The notes beneath the pieces were generated by a model that saw nothing but the letters and a program-made list of their open reading frames with translations, had not been told where the DNA came from and did no database searches. A stretch of 14,341 nucleotides of DNA, taken from NCBI GenBank assembly GCA_031296355.1, contig JARLFX010000137.1, positions 1 to 14,341 on the forward strand, read 5' to 3'. Every line of letters begins with the position of its first letter. The stretch's first letter is position 1. Below are positions 2,367 to 10,732 of this stretch, one piece after another. Origin of the DNA: Acidobacteriaceae bacterium (GTDB taxonomy: Bacteria > Acidobacteriota > Terriglobia > Terriglobales > Acidobacteriaceae). A program made the position numbers and the translations under genes.

Positions 2367-2407
2367 CTTAATCCGAACAACGGCAAAAGCAAAGGCAAAG
2401 GCGCGAA

Positions 2408-2784
2408 GCAGATTCCTCCGCTGCGCTGCGGAATGACAAAGAAAGAAAAAGCAAAGGCGGTCGCCGCTGCGCGACGATTTCCCAGGTCTCAGAAGCGAGA
2501 CCTGGGGCACCCGCATCTGTGCAGCGGGAGCTTTTTGGCAATATGGGTGGCGCGGGCGGTTGTGCATGCAGGTTCCTCCGCTGCGCATCGCAAGAGGCCG
2601 CGATGCTTCGGTCGGAATGACGGAGGTGGGGAGTGGTGGTGACGGGAAGATGGGCGGGGGCATCGCCGCTGCGCGACGATGCCCCACTCATCCCGCATGA
2701 GGCCGCGTGATGAATGGGGCACCCAGCAACAGCAAAAGCAAAGACGAGAAGCAGATTCCGCGCGCTTCGCTTCGGAATGACAAA
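2408..2784. repeat. Mosaic of two interleaved intergenic repeat families
   Basis: Family B starts GCAG(A/G)TTCC and ends CGGAATGAC. Copies lie at 2408-2440, 2568-2621 and 2751-2784; the TTCC and GGAA arms pair, and the interior differs in length. Family C starts TCGCCGCTGCGCGACGAT and ends GGGGCACCC. Copies lie at 2461-2513 and 2663-2724; the middle of each can fold, in the first as GGTCTC-agaagc-GAGACC. The order is B-C-B-C-B, joined by (A)GCAAAAGCAAAGG-type linkers. The open frames here are Ser/Arg/Cys/Ala-rich on both strands and are not genes. The whole span 1917-2852 therefore contains repeats and a terminator-like hairpin but no supportable gene. Confidence 0.7.
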
Positions 2785-2852
2785 TAAAGAAAAGGCAATG
2801 AATGGGCACTGGTTTCACGTGCTTGTCCGTAGACAATAGTAGGCGGTGAGAT

Positions 2853-2880
2853 TTGACCGCTTTAAAATCTGTGTTATAAA
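2853..2880 (+). promoter_or_regulatory. Sigma70-type promoter for the leader peptide/receptor operon
   Basis: TTGACC (2853-2858), a 16-bp spacer and TATAAA (2875-2880) together match the sigma70 consensus at ten of twelve positions. Seven bases after the -10 box is A2888, the first base of an ATG, so the transcript probably begins at or next to the start codon of the leader peptide. Confidence 0.65.
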
Positions 2881-2887
2881 TAAACCC

Positions 2888-2938
2888 ATGAACAGCACTT
2901 CCTATTCGCGTTCATCCTTCCGTTGTTGTTGTTGCTAA
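2888..2938 (+). CDS. Leaderless polycysteine leader peptide (16 aa)
   Basis: ATG at 2888 opens a 16-codon frame, MNSTSYSRSSFRCCCC, closed by TAA at 2936-2938. Four consecutive Cys codons (TGT, TGT, TGT, TGC) sit immediately before the stop. There is no Shine-Dalgarno sequence, and the predicted transcription start coincides with the ATG, so it would be read from a leaderless mRNA. In mycobacteria, leaderless short ORFs encoding polycysteine act as cysteine-responsive attenuators of downstream genes, so a regulatory role is likely here by analogy. It lies 157 nt before the receptor start at 3096. The peptide itself need not have a function. It could be a chance frame, but the combination of a good promoter, an exactly placed ATG and a terminal CCCC argues against that. 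Confidence 0.6.
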   Translation: MNSTSYSRSSFRCCCC

Positions 2939-3030
2939 CCTGCGCGTAGTATCCGCGGGACATTCCCCTATCCCTCCACACAATTTCTAAATAGTCGCTG
3001 ACGAGTTGTTGCTCGCCGTGGCCTGCTATT

Positions 3031-3089
3031 TGCAAACCTATGTTTGCATCTGCGTGGCCTGGCCGCGGCTCATCAAGCGGCAGATAGGT
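3031..3089 (+). promoter_or_regulatory. Leader hairpin with candidate anti-Shine-Dalgarno pairing
   Basis: TGCAAAC (3031-3037) and GTTTGCA (3042-3048) form a perfect seven-base stem with loop CTAT. ACCTAT at 3036-3041, spanning that loop, is the exact complement of ATAGGT at 3084-3089, the presumed ribosome binding site of the receptor. Further upstream CCTATC (2967-2972) is complementary to GATAGG (3083-3088). These could be alternative pairings that hide or free the ribosome binding site depending on leader-peptide translation. The pairings are seen; the mechanism is inference. Confidence 0.35.
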
Positions 3090-3095
3090 CTATTC

Positions 3096-6000
3096 GTGAA
3101 GAAACTCCTTGTATTATTGCTCCTATTGGCCCCGACGCTCTTTGCCCAGACGCCGACTGCATCGCTTACAGGTTATGTCCAGGATCTCTCCGGCGCAGCC
3201 ATCGCGAATGCAAAGGTCACCGTGCGGAACACCGCGACCGGCATCACCCATACCGTCATCACCACCGCTCACGGTGAATATGAAGTCGTTCAACTGCCTC
3301 CCGCGATATACGAAGTGACTGCGGCAGCCAACGGCTTCCAGACCATCTCACAGACAGGCGTTGTTCTTCAGGTCGATCAACGCGCTCGTACCAATTTTGT
3401 TTTGAAGGTCGGTCAGACTACCGAGACGATCCAGGTCTCCAGCGAAGCGGCGTTGACCGATACGCAATCATCTTCGGTTGGCGCCGTGATTGATAACCGC
3501 GAGGTTTCGGAGCTACCGCTGAACACGCGCAGTTTTTATTCTCTGGCGTTGCTTGCTCCGGGCGTGACCCTGCCTGCGCAGAACTCTACGCTCGGATACC
3601 GGGGCGGCTTCAATGTCGCCGGTTCCAAGGAGACATGGAACAGCTTCTCGCTGAATGGCGTCGATGATAACGACGAAGCCATCAATGGCCCAAGCTATCG
3701 CCCCAGCGTCGAATCCATTCTGGAATTCAAGGTGCTTACGGGTATCTACTCTGCTGAGTACGGACGCACCTCTGGCGGTCAGGTTGTAGTGGTTACCAAG
3801 TCTGGAACGAATAATTTTCACGGCGATCTCTTTGAGTATGTTCGCAACCAGCACTTCGATGCCGACAACTACTTCAATCCCGCCGGATCGGCACGTCCGC
3901 CGTACCATCGCAACCAGTTCGGCGGTACTATCGGCGGCCCCATCCAGCACGATAAAACATTCTTCTTCGCGAACTACGAGGCACTTCAACTCAAGCAGCA
4001 GGTTATCGCGCTCTCTACTGTTCCCACGGATGCAATGGCTGGCATTGCTGCTCCCGGCGTCTACGACTTCCGTAGCTTGTTGAATCTGCCAACGCCGATT
4101 CATGTAAAAAATCCTTATACAGGTTTGGATTTCTCCACGCCTAACGTGATTGATAATCAATATCTCAGCTCACTGGGCGTTGCACTGGCCAGTTTCTATC
4201 CCCGGGCAACCCAGCCGACAGCGGCGACTGTAGCGCCGGGCAACAATTACAACTTCTCAGTAACCAGCACGGAGCAGATGAATGAGTTTGCGGTGAAGGT
4301 GGACCATACCTTCTCGCCGAAGGACTCGCTCTTCGTCAATTACAACTATCTGGACGATCCAACCTTCGTCCCCACAAACAACCAGTGCAATTCGAATAAT
4401 TTCATTCCCGGCTTTGGTTGCAGAGACGGTCTCACAGTGCAGCTCGCTGTGATCTCTGAAACGCACGTCTTCCGCCCTAACCTGCTGAATGAAGTGCGTC
4501 TGAACTTCCAGCGTTTCCGCCAGTCGGGCATACAGCAGGATACAAATGCCAACTTCGCCGGTATTCCCGGAGCGTCTGCCGGAGACTTCCAGAACAATAC
4601 CGGCCTGCCGCTTACCACGGTAACGGGCTTCGGCGCGCTCGGCGGTGCATACAACATGCCGCAGCAGCGCTTCGACAACACCTATCAGTTCATTGACGTG
4701 CTGCATTATACGCACGGCCACCATACTCTTGCGGTGGGTGCAGACATCCGCCGTGCTGACTCCATTGACGCTACGGTTTACTACGGCCGCGGTGCGCTCT
4801 CCTTCACCGGCGGCGGCAGCGGATACTCCTTTGCCGATCTGCTGCTCGGTGTGCCGCACACCACGCAGCGCGAACCCGGCGCACCCACCATGCGCCCATA
4901 CCACAATAACGTGGCGTTCTTTGGGCAGGATGACTGGCAGTACCGTCCGTACCTGACCTTCAACCTTGGCCTGCGCTGGGAGTACGATTCACCACTGCGC
5001 GATTACTCCAACAATCTTTCCGGCTTCAACGCAGCGAACGGAACCATCACACTTGCCGGAGCGAATGGTGCATCGACTGCGCTCTACAAGGGTGATTTCA
5101 ACAACTTCGGGCCACGTCTTGGATTTGCCTGGCAGCCCACGCATAACAGTTCCACGGTTGTGCGTGGCGGCTTTGGCATCTTCTACAACGTGCCGGTTCT
5201 GCTGCAGCAGTTCGTCAGTGTGCTGAGCCAGTATCCCGTGCGCAATCCGCAGCTTTTCAGTGCAACCAGCTCTTCACTGCTCACGCTCTCGAATCCTTTT
5301 CCGTCGACTAATGCTCCTGGCTCGCGTACAGCGACGGGGATTGATCCAAACTATGCCACGCCGTATGTGGATGAATGGAGCCTTGGGGTGCAGCGGGCGC
5401 TCTCGCGCTCTGCGCTGCTCGAAGTGACCTACGTGGGCTCGAAGGGGACCAAGCTGCCCACTGAGGTCAACATCAACCAGGCCGTGCTGGGTCCGGGTGG
5501 AACGGGGACGCTCAATGCACGCCGTCCTTACCAGACGCCCTACGCGGGTCTCACCTTCGGCAACGTGACCTACCTGCAGACCGAAGGGAACTCACATTAC
5601 CACTCGCTTCAGGCCAAGCTGCAGCAGAACTATGCGAACGGCTTGTCTTATCTTGTCGCTTACACCTACGGCCGCTCCATCGACGAGGGTCCCGGCGGCA
5701 GCGATTCCAGCAGCGATTCATCGAAGGCGCTTCCGCAGAACTCTTACGCTCCGCATAGTGAGCGCGGGCTTTCTGACTTCGATGTTCGCCACCGCCTGGT
5801 GATCAGCCCGGTCTACGATCTTCCGTTCGGCGCGAAGGGGAAGTACCTGACGCACGGCGTCGGCTCGTATCTGGCTGGGGGGTGGCAACTCTCCGGCATC
5901 ATCCAGTGGCAGACTGGCCGTCCCTTCACCGTCTACTACGGAACGGACAATAGCTACACCGGTGAAAATGCCGACCGTCCAAATGTAGCTCACAACCCCA

Positions 6001-6332
6001 ATCAGAATGCGCCACATAGCGTATCGCAGTGGTTCAACACCACCACGAACCCTGCGTTTGCTGCGGCCGGTACCGGGAACTTCGGTAATGAAAGCCGCAA
6101 TGCCATCCAGGGACCCGGCTACACGGAAGCCGACGTTGCGATTGCCCGTACTTTTCCCATCCATCACAGCGTCAAGTTGAACTTCCGCGCGGAAGCCTTC
6201 AATCTTGCCAACCATCCTAATTTCTACAACCCCAACCCTAGCACGGATACGTACGGCTCTGGTTCCTTCGGCAAGATCTCACAGGCCTTTGATCCGCGCC
6301 AACTGCAGTTTTCGTTGAAGTTGCACTACTAA
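3096..6332 (+). CDS. Oar-like TonB-dependent outer-membrane receptor with carboxypeptidase-regulatory-like domain
   Basis: This outer-membrane protein has 1,078 residues. A signal peptide (KKLLVLLLLLAPTLFA, cleavage before Gln18) is followed by a carboxypeptidase-regulatory-like beta-sandwich (about residues 21-100, TGYVQDLSGAAIANAKVTV onward), a plug domain (about 110-240, with ELPLNTRSFYSLALLAPG and SAEYGRTSGGQVVVVTKSG), and a long beta-barrel ending in the aromatic LQFSLKLHY. This is the Oar-like architecture that is heavily expanded in acidobacteria, where ligands are mostly unknown. I see no clear TonB box. GTG at 3096 is chosen because the signal peptide begins there and AGATAGG (3082-3088) lies a normal distance upstream; the frame stays open to TTG 3006, but that start would put Arg/Pro-rich sequence before the signal peptide. 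It follows a polycysteine leader peptide and precedes a small secreted protein by 21 bp, so the two genes form an operon. Confidence 0.9.
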   Translation: MKKLLVLLLLLAPTLFAQTPTASLTGYVQDLSGAAIANAKVTVRNTATGITHTVITTAHGEYEVVQLPPAIYEVTAAANGFQTISQTGVVLQVDQRARTNFVLKVGQTTETIQVSSEAALTDTQSSSVGAVIDNREVSELPLNTRSFYSLALLAPGVTLPAQNSTLGYRGGFNVAGSKETWNSFSLNGVDDNDEAINGPSYRPSVESILEFKVLTGIYSAEYGRTSGGQVVVVTKSGTNNFHGDLFEYVRNQHFDADNYFNPAGSARPPYHRNQFGGTIGGPIQHDKTFFFANYEALQLKQQVIALSTVPTDAMAGIAAPGVYDFRSLLNLPTPIHVKNPYTGLDFSTPNVIDNQYLSSLGVALASFYPRATQPTAATVAPGNNYNFSVTSTEQMNEFAVKVDHTFSPKDSLFVNYNYLDDPTFVPTNNQCNSNNFIPGFGCRDGLTVQLAVISETHVFRPNLLNEVRLNFQRFRQSGIQQDTNANFAGIPGASAGDFQNNTGLPLTTVTGFGALGGAYNMPQQRFDNTYQFIDVLHYTHGHHTLAVGADIRRADSIDATVYYGRGALSFTGGGSGYSFADLLLGVPHTTQREPGAPTMRPYHNNVAFFGQDDWQYRPYLTFNLGLRWEYDSPLRDYSNNLSGFNAANGTITLAGANGASTALYKGDFNNFGPRLGFAWQPTHNSSTVVRGGFGIFYNVPVLLQQFVSVLSQYPVRNPQLFSATSSSLLTLSNPFPSTNAPGSRTATGIDPNYATPYVDEWSLGVQRALSRSALLEVTYVGSKGTKLPTEVNINQAVLGPGGTGTLNARRPYQTPYAGLTFGNVTYLQTEGNSHYHSLQAKLQQNYANGLSYLVAYTYGRSIDEGPGGSDSSSDSSKALPQNSYAPHSERGLSDFDVRHRLVISPVYDLPFGAKGKYLTHGVGSYLAGGWQLSGIIQWQTGRPFTVYYGTDNSYTGENADRPNVAHNPNQNAPHSVSQWFNTTTNPAFAAAGTGNFGNESRNAIQGPGYTEADVAIARTFPIHHSVKLNFRAEAFNLANHPNFYNPNPSTDTYGSGSFGKISQAFDPRQLQFSLKLHY

Positions 6333-6353
6333 CCATTCCTCAGGAGGGAATAC

Positions 6354-6791
6354 ATGAAGAAATTATTTCGCATCACTTTCATCGCGCTGCTGCTTGCGGG
6401 TTTTGCATCCACCAGTCTGCACGCGCAACGTGACAACAACGGCGGCCCGCGCACCTCGCAGGCGTACTACAAGATCACTGCCGGCCACCAGCAGGAGTGG
6501 TTCAATCTCTACGAGAACTATCACTACCCTATCCTGAAGTCGCTACAGCAGGAGGGCTATATCAAGAGCATCACGCTCTATAAGCGCGACCGTCATCATC
6601 TGTCGCCTGCATGGGATTATGAGCTGCAGATTGTGTGGCGCGATAAGGTTGCGCAGATTACCGGGGACAGCCCGGAACTTCTGCACAAGCTCTTCCCGGA
6701 CTGGGCGGACTACCAGAAGAATGAAGCCCGCCGCTGGGAGGTTACGCAAGAGCATTGGGACGAAGATCTCTCGCCCGTTGCGGTGGAGTAG
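6354..6791 (+). CDS. Small secreted protein with possible dimeric alpha/beta-barrel fold
   Basis: This 145-residue protein starts with a clear signal peptide (MKKLFRITFIALLLAGFASTS, cleavage after Leu-His-Ala, before Gln25). The mature part is about 120 residues. Its SQAYYKITAGHQQEWFNLYE segment (35-54) is followed by a strand-rich SITLYKRD and YELQIVW, a pattern like the antibiotic-monooxygenase/NIPSNAP-type ferredoxin-like fold; this is inference from pattern only. A strong Shine-Dalgarno CAGGAGGGA at 6341-6349 fixes the ATG at 6354. It lies 21 bp after the receptor stop and before a terminator, so it is the last gene of the receptor operon and probably a periplasmic or exported partner. 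It shares the GHxxEW motif with the protein at 13223-14098. Confidence 0.75.
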   Translation: MKKLFRITFIALLLAGFASTSLHAQRDNNGGPRTSQAYYKITAGHQQEWFNLYENYHYPILKSLQQEGYIKSITLYKRDRHHLSPAWDYELQIVWRDKVAQITGDSPELLHKLFPDWADYQKNEARRWEVTQEHWDEDLSPVAVE

Positions 6792-7631: not shown

Positions 7632-7708
7632 GGGCGAGTAGCTCAATTGGATAGAGCACCGGCCTTCTAAGCCGGTGGTTGCAGGTTCGAGCCCTGCCTC
7701 GCCCACCA
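7632..7708 (+). tRNA. tRNA-Arg (TCT anticodon), island integration site
   Basis: The acceptor GGGCGAG (7632-7638) pairs with CTCGCCC (7698-7704), with discriminator A7705 and encoded CCA at 7706-7708. The D arm is GCTC-AATTGGATA-GAGC. The anticodon stem CCGGC/GCCGG holds loop CTTCTAA, anticodon TCT, reading AGA. The T arm is GCAGG-TTCGAGC-CCTGC. Its last 45 bases are repeated exactly at 10823-10867. Confidence 0.96.
7664..7708 (+). repeat. attL: left 45-bp direct repeat (3' half of tRNA-Arg)
   Basis: The segment from the anticodon loop to the CCA end is identical to 10823-10867. It is the usual footprint of tyrosine-recombinase integration at a tRNA 3' end, where the element's copy keeps the tRNA intact. 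The flanking bases differ outside the 45 bp. Confidence 0.9.
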
Positions 7709-7897: not shown

Positions 7898-8236
7898 GTG
7901 TGTCCAACCATTGACAAGTCGCGAAGGGCTGGCGGTATTAGGCTCATTTGCACCCTTGTCGCTGAATTAAATTATGAACTGTCGAGCCATGCAGTAGTGG
8001 GAGTCGAGAACAATGATTTCAGTCCAGAGGATATAGAGGCCAGCATCGCTAGTGGCACCGTCTTAAAGACTGACGCCGACGAATTCTGCGAAAGCGTTGG
8101 AAACAAGAAATACACAATCGTCGGAAAAGCATCGTGTGGGAGACCGATATACACCGTCGGAAAGATTGTCCGTTGTTGCGGTGAACTCACCTACCGCTTT
8201 ATCTCCATCAAATGCGATGAGGTTAATTATGACTGA
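7898..8236 (+). CDS. DUF4258-like protein, candidate toxin
   Basis: This 112-residue protein has the DUF4258 layout: YELSSHAVVGVENNDFSPED (residues 26-45), a helix ending IASGTVLK, then VGNKKYTIVGKASCGRPIYTV (67-87) and a final strand RFISIKC. In typical members the S-x-HA motif is followed by an Arg (HAxxR); here the position is Val/Gly, so the active site may differ. DUF4258 proteins are often found next to YgiT/MqsA-type antitoxins and are suspected RNase-type toxins; activity is not shown here. GTG 7898 is chosen because no in-frame ATG precedes the domain and the promoter places transcription start at this base; TTG-type starts further in would cut into the domain. The last 8 bases overlap the start of the next gene, consistent with translational coupling. 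Confidence 0.65.
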   Translation: MCPTIDKSRRAGGIRLICTLVAELNYELSSHAVVGVENNDFSPEDIEASIASGTVLKTDADEFCESVGNKKYTIVGKASCGRPIYTVGKIVRCCGELTYRFISIKCDEVNYD

Positions 8237-8795
8237 GCCAAAATGTGATACATGCCATGAAGGGCTAATTGTTCCACGGGACATAATCAATTATCGTGCA
8301 AAGGTGAGTGGAGTAGAACTTACGATACCCATAGCCCATCTGCGGGTATGCGAAAACTGTGGTGCCATCTATTTTCCAGCTAAGGAACTACGCCGCTGGA
8401 ATGATCTGCTTCTAGAGCTTGATCCACTTAGAACGCCTACACCTGAGGAAATCCGCAAACTACGAGAGCGCCTTGGAATGAGCGTGAACGAATTTGCGAC
8501 CTTTCTCAGATCTACTCGCCAATCTGTTTATAGTTGGGAAAATTCGAATAACGTCATCCGACCAATTAGGCCGATCGCCATTTTGTTGTCAATCGTACAA
8601 GCAAGTTTGGATAAAGGCGCGATAGACATCGTGGCTCTTCTCAAGCCGCCAGTGCGAAATAGTCGCACATTCACAATACCTAGTTGCCGTTCTTGGCCTG
8701 AACACGGTAGACGACTGCGCCCAAGCACGGAATACCGCTCAGCCCTCAAATTATCCAACAACTCTTCACCCAAGCCACTTCCAGGACTCAGATAA
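8229..8795 (+). CDS. MqsA/YgiT-like zinc-finger HTH protein, candidate antitoxin-repressor
   Basis: This is a 188-residue protein. Cys6-x2-Cys9 (KCDTCHEG) and Cys41-x2-Cys44 (VCENCGAIYF) make the zinc-binding N-terminal domain of the MqsA/YgiT type. Residues about 70-125 (PEEIRKLRERLGMSVNEFATFLRSTRQSVYSWEN) are an XRE/MqsA helix-turn-helix. In MqsA the zinc domain binds the toxin and the HTH represses the operon, and the toxin gene comes first, as here. A basic, low-complexity tail of about 50 residues after the HTH is longer than usual for MqsA (131 residues) and might contact the third gene product. ATG 8229 is chosen because it gives the zinc finger at the N-terminus and overlaps the upstream stop; the frame extends to 8097, but only through the DUF4258 gene. 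Its TAA stop overlaps the next ATG (TAATG). Confidence 0.8.
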   Translation: MTEPKCDTCHEGLIVPRDIINYRAKVSGVELTIPIAHLRVCENCGAIYFPAKELRRWNDLLLELDPLRTPTPEEIRKLRERLGMSVNEFATFLRSTRQSVYSWENSNNVIRPIRPIAILLSIVQASLDKGAIDIVALLKPPVRNSRTFTIPSCRSWPEHGRRLRPSTEYRSALKLSNNSSPKPLPGLR

Positions 8796-10732
8796 TGTTC
8801 GCTACTTTCTATTCTTACAAAGGCGGGGTAGGTCGAAGTTTGGCATTGGCAAATGTCGCTTGGCTCTTGGCCAACCATCCCACTGAACCCGCGCGAGTTC
8901 TAACAATAGACTTTGACCTGAATGCACCCGGTCTTCACAAGGTCTTTGGTATGGAGGAACACAATGATGCGCTAGGCATAGTCGACTTTGTTCAGACATT
9001 TATCTCGGAAGCGCGAATCGACTCCATAAGCTCATATATTCACAAGACTCAATTCCCCAATATCGATATCCTTCCGGCTGGGCTTTTTAATTCCACATAT
9101 CAAGCTCGTCTAGAGGCAATCAATTGGAAAGAACTGTATGAAGATGCATACGGATTTGAATTTATCAATCGGCTTAAGCAGATGATCTTGGATCTAAAGC
9201 CGGCATACGATTATGTTTTGGTTGATTCACTGACTGGCTATAGCGATGTTGGTGGTATTTGTGTGAGACAACTTCCAGACTGCGTCGTACTGCTCTTTCG
9301 ACTGAATGATCAAAATCTGGATGGTATTGAATCAGTTTACAAGAGTATAAAGTCGGCCGATGAGACGGGCAGTCCAACTCCCGTTATTCCAGTAATTACG
9401 CCTGCGTGGCCATTCCTGGATTCAGCAGCGACTAAATGGTATGAAAAGGCAAAATCTATATTTTCTTCCCAGACACTTAGCCAGATTTCCTTTGATGGGG
9501 GACTGAGCTTTGGTGAATCAATTATTTCTCAATCTCGGTCCACAAATCTGCGGCTAGCCGTTCTAAGCGATTATGAGGGTTTAGCATTGCGTCTTCGCTC
9601 TCAGAATGCTGCTGACCCGCTAACAATGTGGAACTCCCTCAGGTCGAGAACGTCGGACATAGCAACTGACTCGCTTAGCAAGTATCAGAAGCTCCTCGCG
9701 CTTCGACCGAAGAACGAAGAGTATTGGCAATACTTACCCAATATTGCTTACAGGCCCAGTCTTTCTGTGATGTCTGATCGGAAGGCGAGTATTCCGAATG
9801 CACTTCAAGAGTTTAGAGCTTTTGTCGATAAGCAATGCGAGTTGAGCAATGAGTTCGCATTGCTAGCACGCTTTCGCTTTGAGACTCTATGGAATCCTAA
9901 AGGGAAAAGGCGTCCTATTGACGATCTCAATAAAGCACTTGAGATCAGTCCGGGCTATTTTGATGCTTTGATAGCAAAAGGGCATCTCTTGCAATTCGAA
10001 GGAAATCCTGTAGAAGCGGTTCGCATCTTCAAAGTTGCTCTTAATATTCTTCCAGCTGCAGATCGGAAGAGGGGGATGGTCTTCGAACTCTTAGGTGGTG
10101 CGTCCCTAGATGTTCTTGACGGGGATAGTGCAGTCGACTTTTATTTACAGGCTTTGCGACTCAATGATAGGGATGCCGATCTCTATTCGGGATTAAGTCG
10201 CGCCTATTATTTAGTCGGCAAGCTAGGCGAAGCATTCGGAGAAATTGAAAGGTTTCGCTCAATTGATCGGGAAGATGAAACTACGGGACAACTCCTTCCA
10301 ACGCAGATACTGGCAGCTATGGGAAAGATTGAAGAGGCTAAGAGCCGTTTGGACCAGCTTCTAAGTGAGAACAGGAGGAATCGAGATGTCGAGAATCTCG
10401 CTGAGGCTTATTTAGCTGTTGATCCTGCGAAGAGCCTAGATCTTCTTAGCAGGAAGTCCTCGGGTGTAAAGTCAAGCCCAGTGAACAGCCTTCAGATAAT
10501 TGCGAAGATACTGCTTGGTGAAAAGAGACGATTGTCACAGCAAGACAAGTTAGATATCGCAAAGGATAGGAAGAACAAGAAAATCTTTTGGAGTTCTTTC
10601 GAATTGACGGCAATGTTGAGAGCAGCTTCTCGTTCAGGGCGAATCGCACAAACCAAGATCCGCCTCGCGGAGGATGTGCTGCGGGAGCTTGGGCCGATGA
10701 GTCCTGCAGCTATCACTTTTCAAGGGCGCTAA
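8795..10732 (+). CDS. KGGVGR-motif P-loop ATPase with C-terminal TPR-like repeats
   Basis: This is a 645-residue protein. It opens with a ParA/MinD/SIMIBI-type deviant Walker A, FYSYKGGVGRS (Lys9, Arg14 instead of the usual Lys before Ser/Thr), the KGGVGR variant found in several bacterial conflict systems. A Walker A' (TIDFDLNAPG, Asp39/Asp41) and a Walker B strand (YVLVDSLTG, Asp144) are present, so nucleotide binding is likely. After the ATPase (about 1-270) comes a helical region with TPR-like pairs at about 370-540 (for example DLNKALEISPGYFDALIAKGHLL and FYLQALRLNDRDADLYSGLSRAYY), suggesting protein binding or sensing. It has no signal peptide or membrane segment. The start ATG shares one base with the previous stop, so translation is coupled. 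Its place as the third gene of a toxin-antitoxin-like operon suggests a sensor or regulator of that pair. Full length and apparently intact. Confidence 0.85.
   Translation: MFATFYSYKGGVGRSLALANVAWLLANHPTEPARVLTIDFDLNAPGLHKVFGMEEHNDALGIVDFVQTFISEARIDSISSYIHKTQFPNIDILPAGLFNSTYQARLEAINWKELYEDAYGFEFINRLKQMILDLKPAYDYVLVDSLTGYSDVGGICVRQLPDCVVLLFRLNDQNLDGIESVYKSIKSADETGSPTPVIPVITPAWPFLDSAATKWYEKAKSIFSSQTLSQISFDGGLSFGESIISQSRSTNLRLAVLSDYEGLALRLRSQNAADPLTMWNSLRSRTSDIATDSLSKYQKLLALRPKNEEYWQYLPNIAYRPSLSVMSDRKASIPNALQEFRAFVDKQCELSNEFALLARFRFETLWNPKGKRRPIDDLNKALEISPGYFDALIAKGHLLQFEGNPVEAVRIFKVALNILPAADRKRGMVFELLGGASLDVLDGDSAVDFYLQALRLNDRDADLYSGLSRAYYLVGKLGEAFGEIERFRSIDREDETTGQLLPTQILAAMGKIEEAKSRLDQLLSENRRNRDVENLAEAYLAVDPAKSLDLLSRKSSGVKSSPVNSLQIIAKILLGEKRRLSQQDKLDIAKDRKNKKIFWSSFELTAMLRAASRSGRIAQTKIRLAEDVLRELGPMSPAAITFQGR

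Follow-up and report, generated by a model that had tools for sequence, protein, structure and literature searches.

Acidobacteria, which are abundant soil bacteria, have scores of TonB-dependent receptors whose substrates are unknown. One such receptor is encoded at 3096..6332 on the forward strand of the stretch analysed here, 14,341 nt of an Acidobacteriaceae contig (JARLFX010000137.1), referred to below as the window. The gene starts with GTG, and Pfam assigns to its product an N-terminal CarboxypepD_reg domain and an OMP_b-brl_4 barrel, with a Plug match just below the Pfam cut-off; orthologs are present in the genomes G001 (Granulicella MAG PLHC01000143) and G282. The list of open reading frames gives TTG 3006, an upstream extension in the same frame as GTG 3096; this N-terminal extension of the receptor was rejected, as the leader frames differ by indels. 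The receptor gene is followed on the same strand (6354..6791) by that of a companion protein of 145 aa with a signal-like N-terminus and a predicted dimeric alpha-beta-barrel/NIPSNAP/ABM-like fold. Its structure model (mean pLDDT 80.5, as opposed to 59-64 for the other four models) resembles dimeric alpha-beta-barrel proteins, with a best Foldseek E of 1.5e-05, and does not support a PadR regulator, as which the protein appears under some source names. The companion has no Pfam match and 29 related clusters in the protein database. It also adjoins the receptor in G001 and G282 and has a distant relative in the receptor cluster of G403; a search of 347 genomes found no close relative beyond G001 and G282. 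Further downstream, a gene pair at 8097-10732 with low third-position GC, encoding a protein with a weak HTH match and an AAA_31/TPR protein, follows the tRNA-Arg at 7632 and looks like a mobile island.

A short open reading frame (sORF) encoding MNSTSYSRSSFRCCCC (2888..2938, forward strand) ends 157 nt upstream of the receptor GTG. It runs from ATG 2888-2890 to TAA 2936-2938 and comprises 16 sense codons, the last four of which are cysteine codons, TGT TGT TGT TGC (2924..2935), proposed here as the sensor run. This is the 16-codon frame with four terminal cysteine codons and a stop that the first-pass annotation had placed upstream of the receptor, and the sigma70-like hexamers that it saw before the ATG can likewise be read, as a putative -35 hexamer TTGACC (2853..2858) and, after a spacer of 16 nt, a putative -10 hexamer TATAAA (2875..2880), which is preceded by TGT as in the extended -10 type and lies 7 nt 5' of the ATG. 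A strict promoter scan nevertheless found no promoter and listed neither hexamer, because the -10 hexamer does not end in T. Upstream of ATG 2888, Shine-Dalgarno-like stretches are at most 3 nt long, which is consistent with a leaderless start. Between the sORF and the receptor, a C-rich tract of 34 nt without G (2960..2993), possibly a Rho-loading tract, is followed by the conserved leader element ATAGTCGCTGACGAG (2991..3005), with 14 of its 15 positions invariant in the alignment of the three closest leaders, and by a Shine-Dalgarno-like AGGT of the receptor (3086..3089). No Rfam family was found in the leader, the scan having matched two tRNAs only. Terminator-like sites were absent from 2400-3400 of the window, and a classical attenuator with an intrinsic terminator was accordingly not found there.

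The receptors closest to that of the window are those of G001 (locus L042, 77% identical) and G282 (L043, 73%), and both are preceded by an sORF at the same position, encoding MVRLTPFQPAFRCCCR in G001 and (MK)MTPSFQSGFRCCCCR in G282. The sORF ends 157, 150 and 156 nt before the receptor match in the window, L042 and L043, respectively. The three peptides have only the start and FRCCC in common, and most other residues differ. The TTGACC hexamer is not conserved as such in L042 and L043, and GTTATAAATAAA at the -10 region is identical in L042 and different in L043. A wider receptor search in 398 genomes added G403 (L099, 51% identical), with a leader sORF ending in PCRCCCR and stop, and G366 (L104, 45%), with two tandem sORFs, one encoding MKNILTHRVCCCR and the other ending in HGLCCCH and stop; the receptor of G211 (L052, 39%) has a leader sORF ending in MHCCCR and stop. 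The other four receptors of the window's clade (45-77% identical; see the tree below) and one more distant receptor are thus preceded by a short ORF that ends in three or four Cys codons plus Arg, His or stop, and the rest of the leader peptide drifts while the Cys tail is kept. Shine-Dalgarno-like stretches before the start codon do not exceed 3 nt in the window, L042, L043, the first sORF of L104 and the cysK-operon sORF of G282 (see below), and reach 4-5 nt before the second sORFs of L099 and L104 and the sORF of L052. In G403 an earlier Cys-rich short ORF with two CCC runs, ending in CCC, was read by eye (L143, about 3420-3580), with TATAAG 7 nt before its ATG. Between this first and the second sORF lies a GC-rich hairpin with a T run, which the terminator scan of G403 did not list; this arrangement could represent a classical attenuator or simply a terminator.

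In a tree of 25 receptors, the window, L042, L043, L099 and L104 form one supported clade (98/96), and the leader is present in all five members. The CCC run is kept in these five and in L052, so that the first-pass annotation's proposal to look for conserved Cys codons in orthologous leaders gave a positive answer for the Cys run and not for the other residues. In the neighbouring clade of 13 rows and in L085, the leader was found in none. L106, a partial match, was left out of the tree and is one of the 22 nearest receptors counted below. The neighbouring clade seems to have a conserved leader of its own without Cys codons; by eye, the motifs TTTGCAAGA and GCATCTGG, which contain no Cys codons, were seen about 170-300 nt upstream of the receptor match in two of its loci, L044 and L050. 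Several other candidates were discarded. The frame encoding MRPSGLWACLCR in L072 lacks three consecutive Cys and, as a weak candidate, was not counted, and the Cys-rich frames of L050, L062 and L069 overlap the start of the receptor match and correspond to a leucine-rich signal peptide read in another frame. A scan of genome contigs with the receptor gave two loci, and L002 (30% identical) had no leader recognisable by eye. With the leader DNA as query, 213 of 300 genomes gave a match at E up to 1, of which only that of G001 was strong (2e-13), the next best being short with an E of 0.004. A first tail pattern matched 8 of 150 genomes, and the seven other than G001 were judged chance matches.

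The frequency of such sORFs was compared with shuffled sequences. In the 400 nt before the 22 nearest receptors, which comprise the window, 20 matches at E up to 1e-165 and L072, six CCC-tailed short ORFs were found, the window included, as opposed to a mean of 0.09 and a maximum of 1 in 200 rounds of dinucleotide shuffling and none on the reverse strand. The remaining 16 receptors are without the leader. Before 44 more distant receptors, among them L070 (39% identical), no such ORF was found (shuffle mean 0.07; one on the reverse strand); one partial match of 42% identity (G243) lies outside both sets. Since the receptors are related, these counts are not independent events. As a positive control, cysK genes were read at the best 30 matches from a search of 120 genomes, 90 of which had a match, leaving out L196, which is the same locus as L150. 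Four of these 29 genes are preceded by a CCC-tailed short ORF (shuffle mean 0.04) and 25 are not. The sORFs end 63-75 nt before the gene and encode peptides ending in FQCRCCCCPR (G064), TSCCCCCF (G116) and CACCCCCCR (G029), and MRAIANSAPCDSCRLCCCR in G078, each followed by a stop. The ORF is observed as a conserved element that is enriched before both the receptor clade and cysK.

To this was added a census of six genomes, which gave 62 matches to TGYTGYTGYCRNTRR; each of them was inspected. At eight of them there is an ATG-started short ORF that does not fall within a plausible protein gene: six lie before receptors (G001, G282, G403, G211 and two in G366), one precedes the outer-membrane protein-cysK-cysE genes of G282, and the eighth, encoding MVFSFTYRLCCCR, is found in G366 before a DOPA-dioxygenase-like gene, 1.3 kb upstream of the receptor leader. 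Six had already been found before the census, and the two that it added both fit. At two of the eight sites, G366:C10:64623 and G282:C21:60861, the sORF is also covered by an open frame of 110 codons or more; these two frames were taken to be that of the receptor itself and an antisense one. The other 54 matches lie in longer open frames, have no start or stop, or belong to two weak misfits. One misfit, G325:C133:8095 (L142 2045-2110), starts with TTG and ends in ACCCR and stop 24 nt before a permease gene, which is followed by PfkB kinase and IlvD/Edd genes; this sORF may be due to chance or have a target outside sulfur metabolism. The other, G366:C4:208935, has a GTG start and 8 codons, overlaps the 5' end of a divergent gene and does not precede a sulfur gene. 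Because both precede non-sulfur genes, they slightly lower the odds of the cysteine-leader reading. A second census, of four genomes selected because they have cysK leaders, yielded 37 matches and no target other than the two cysK leaders known beforehand; an RYCCCCR-stop match in G116 results from reading the leucine run of a protein out of frame. That such tails can arise by chance is evident from the 54 of 62 matches that are not good sORFs, and the leader could in principle be a by-product, with a simple TGT repeat in a short ORF lying before the receptor by coincidence. This is very unlikely, as six and four cases were seen before receptors and cysK against shuffle means of 0.09 and 0.04, and the tail is kept between receptors of 45% identity.

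Several of the genes found with these leaders point to sulfur. In G282, which also has the receptor leader, an sORF encoding MAQSHHAARHLGCCCCR precedes genes for an outer-membrane protein, cysK and cysE, and cysK and cysE score above the NCBIfam cut-offs. The outer-membrane protein (DUF3034) was rejected as the carrier of the leader: at 29 other loci of its family (from the best 30 of the matches, which came from 44 of 250 genomes), the sORF was absent and the flank examined contained no cysK, so that the leader accompanies the cysteine genes rather than the membrane protein. The G403 receptor is followed by genes for a DszB-like protein, whose sole matched PDB molecule is DszB (2de2, best E 1e-11), an MFS transporter and a DszC/SfnB-like flavoprotein (E 1e-60), and the G211 receptor cluster encodes an SfnG/SsuD-like monooxygenase, MetQ, MetN and a permease. 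Whereas cysK and cysE exceed the curated NCBIfam cut-offs, the matches listed for these sulfur-type genes fall below them and do not fix the exact activities. The genes of the G366 cluster (LysE, MFS, aminotransferase, dioxygenase) and that of G325 (an amidohydrolase) are not obviously sulfur genes, and in the stretches examined of the window, G001 and G282, no relative of the G403 and G211 sulfur enzymes was found and only the companion adjoins the receptor. The receptor-sulfur link that the first-pass annotation had drawn is thus supported by association, through the cysK leaders, the leader of the cysK-cysE operon and the desulfurisation-type neighbours of two relatives; for the window's own receptor, the putative link runs through kinship and the leader only. 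The Cys-run leader probably marks the receptor clade as sulfur-related.

A metal signal was considered as well, since the first-pass annotation had pointed to a copper-responsive device in Bordetella. On this reading, the CCCC peptide, while emerging from the ribosome, would bind a thiophilic metal such as copper or zinc and gate a receptor for a metal or metallophore. The uORF CruR precedes a TonB-dependent transporter gene with an intergenic region of 162 nt (PMC9973294), similar to that of the window. About 8 kb upstream of the G001 receptor, and separated from it by pyrimidine-type genes, there is an RND efflux gene that looks CusA/CzcA-like by eye. The CruR/CutF-like copper uORFs of Bordetella and Rhodobacter combine a Cu-binding motif with a Pro-rich stalling-like motif and respond to metal (PMC9973294). 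In contrast, the window peptide has 16 residues with a bare Cys run and contains neither CXXC nor Pro, and the related peptides are short and, by eye, without CXXC or a signal sequence. As the same leader type also precedes cysK and cysK-cysE, and the neighbours in G403 and G211 are sulfur-type genes, the copper alternative was set aside as unlikely. Still less likely is a RiPP-like role, in which the receptor would take up a small thiol or metal-binding peptide made from the sORF product as precursor, an idea that draws on a small Cys-tailed peptide adjoining a TonB-dependent receptor. The N-terminal part of the peptide is not conserved, the same tail occurs before cysK, and no modifying enzyme was noticed by eye in the neighbourhoods listed, all of which makes this reading barely credible.

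At the RNA level, the Cys codons of 11 sORFs from 10 loci are 36 TGT to 11 TGC, as opposed to 81 TGT to 279 TGC in the long open frames of 12 stretches, which may include spurious frames; the bias towards TGT corresponds to an odds ratio of 11 (p 5e-13 if codons are taken as independent). This preference would also suit a conserved untranslated leader in which the repeated TGTTGTTG acts as RNA, for example by pairing or as a protein site, and so would the identity of the tail at the nucleotide level (TGTTGTTGCCGCTAG) in L043, L052 and the first sORF of L104. However, in each of the 11 sORFs compared the Cys run shares its frame with a start codon upstream and is separated from a stop by no more than two codons, L209 and L207 keep the Cys run with other tails, and TGT and TGC are exchanged, so this alternative appears quite improbable. 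The leaders fold little or no better than shuffled sequences (z -1.66 in the window, 0.46 in L042, -0.69 in L043), and RNAalifold gave no covariation support for three leaders, with 4 of 45 consensus pairs covarying and a covariation term of 0.13. Partition-function modelling of ten leaders, with the start assumed 3 nt (L042) and 1 nt (L099) downstream of the true start, gave no consistent opening of the receptor Shine-Dalgarno site when the Cys run is occupied. Its unpaired probability changes from 0.44 to 0.49 in the window, from 0.34 to 0.33 in L042 and from 0.32 to 0.32 in L043, with the largest rise of the ten in L211 (0.33 to 0.46) and a fall in L104 (0.32 to 0.22). The longest G-free stretch exceeds that of shuffled sequences in the window, L043 (33 nt) and marginally L211 (p 0.04) and not in the other eight of 11 leaders, L042 among them (22 nt, p 0.09). 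In the window the tract, which would be suitable for Rho, begins 22 nt past the stop and thus farther downstream than a ribosome stalled in the Cys run usually covers. Stalling on the Cys codons is the best-supported idea.

We therefore regard it as quite likely that the locus carries a ribosome-stalling, cysteine-responsive leader of the mycobacterial kind in another phylum, which controls the outer-membrane import of a sulfur compound. The conserved leader suggests that the receptor is made when the cell is short of cysteine. For leader translation, signal and output, we infer the following course. RNA polymerase would start at or within a few bases of ATG 2888 and, because transcription would begin at or near the ATG, ribosomes would load on the 5' end without a Shine-Dalgarno site; translation of the leader peptide (2888-2938) would measure charged tRNA-Cys. 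When cysteine is ample, the ribosome would pass FRCCCC to the stop and receptor expression would be low; when it is short, the ribosome would stall in the TGT-rich run, by analogy with mycobacteria, the downstream leader RNA would be remodelled, and the receptor and its 145-aa companion would be made. The output step may be the freeing of the receptor ribosome-binding site, a step reported in mycobacteria, or an escape from Rho-dependent termination in or near 2960-2993, the former being slightly more likely purely by analogy. If the receptor imports a sulfur-containing compound, as we suppose, the circuit would therefore couple outer-membrane sulfur import to the cytoplasmic cysteine supply. 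There is about an even chance that this extends to a cysteine 'ribulon' in Acidobacteria, in which unrelated genes (cysK, a cysK-cysE operon, organosulfur-import receptors and a dioxygenase of the same cluster) would each have their own polycysteine leader peptides, some in tandem with a leaderless sORF followed by an SD-led one, and stalling on uncharged tRNA-Cys would directly open outer-membrane sulfur scavenging.

Leaderless polycysteine sORF attenuators were reportedly described in Mycobacterium smegmatis by Canestrari et al. in 2020. The leader of the window resembles these attenuators as a short ORF with a terminal Cys run that is putatively leaderless in the window and lies, with its relatives, upstream of genes of known or putative sulfur or cysteine supply. 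It differs from them in its phylum and in its target, an outer-membrane TonB-dependent receptor, and is known here from sequence alone; moreover, most tails are CCC followed by Arg or His, the spacer is 150-157 nt in the three closest leaders, an SD-like site precedes some of the sORFs, and sORFs occur in tandem in G403 and G366. If the proposed control is real, tRNA-charging control of the mycobacterial polycysteine type extends to a distant phylum and to an outer-membrane importer, and the Cys-run leader gives one receptor clade a testable signal. Polycysteine leader peptides are known in mycobacteria (PMC9031893, PMC9094748 and PMC13236596). Leader-peptide candidates were predicted in 2005 for cys operons of Mycobacterium and Propionibacterium acnes and for cbs in Bifidobacterium longum (PMC1262725). 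As in the leaders described here, the Cys runs of these actinobacterial candidates lie near the stop without a conserved terminator, for which the authors suggest Rho; unlike them, the candidates precede cys or cbs operons and not receptors. Among the papers listed in searches of open-licence literature, no account was found of such leaders in acidobacteria or before TonB-dependent receptors. New here are the phylum, the tandem arrangement and the control of an outer-membrane receptor as the proposed target. As a separate observation, three polycysteine short ORFs lie within 1.5 kb in G366 (contig C10; L137, about 5120-6640), one before the DOPA-4,5-dioxygenase-like gene and two in tandem before the receptor.
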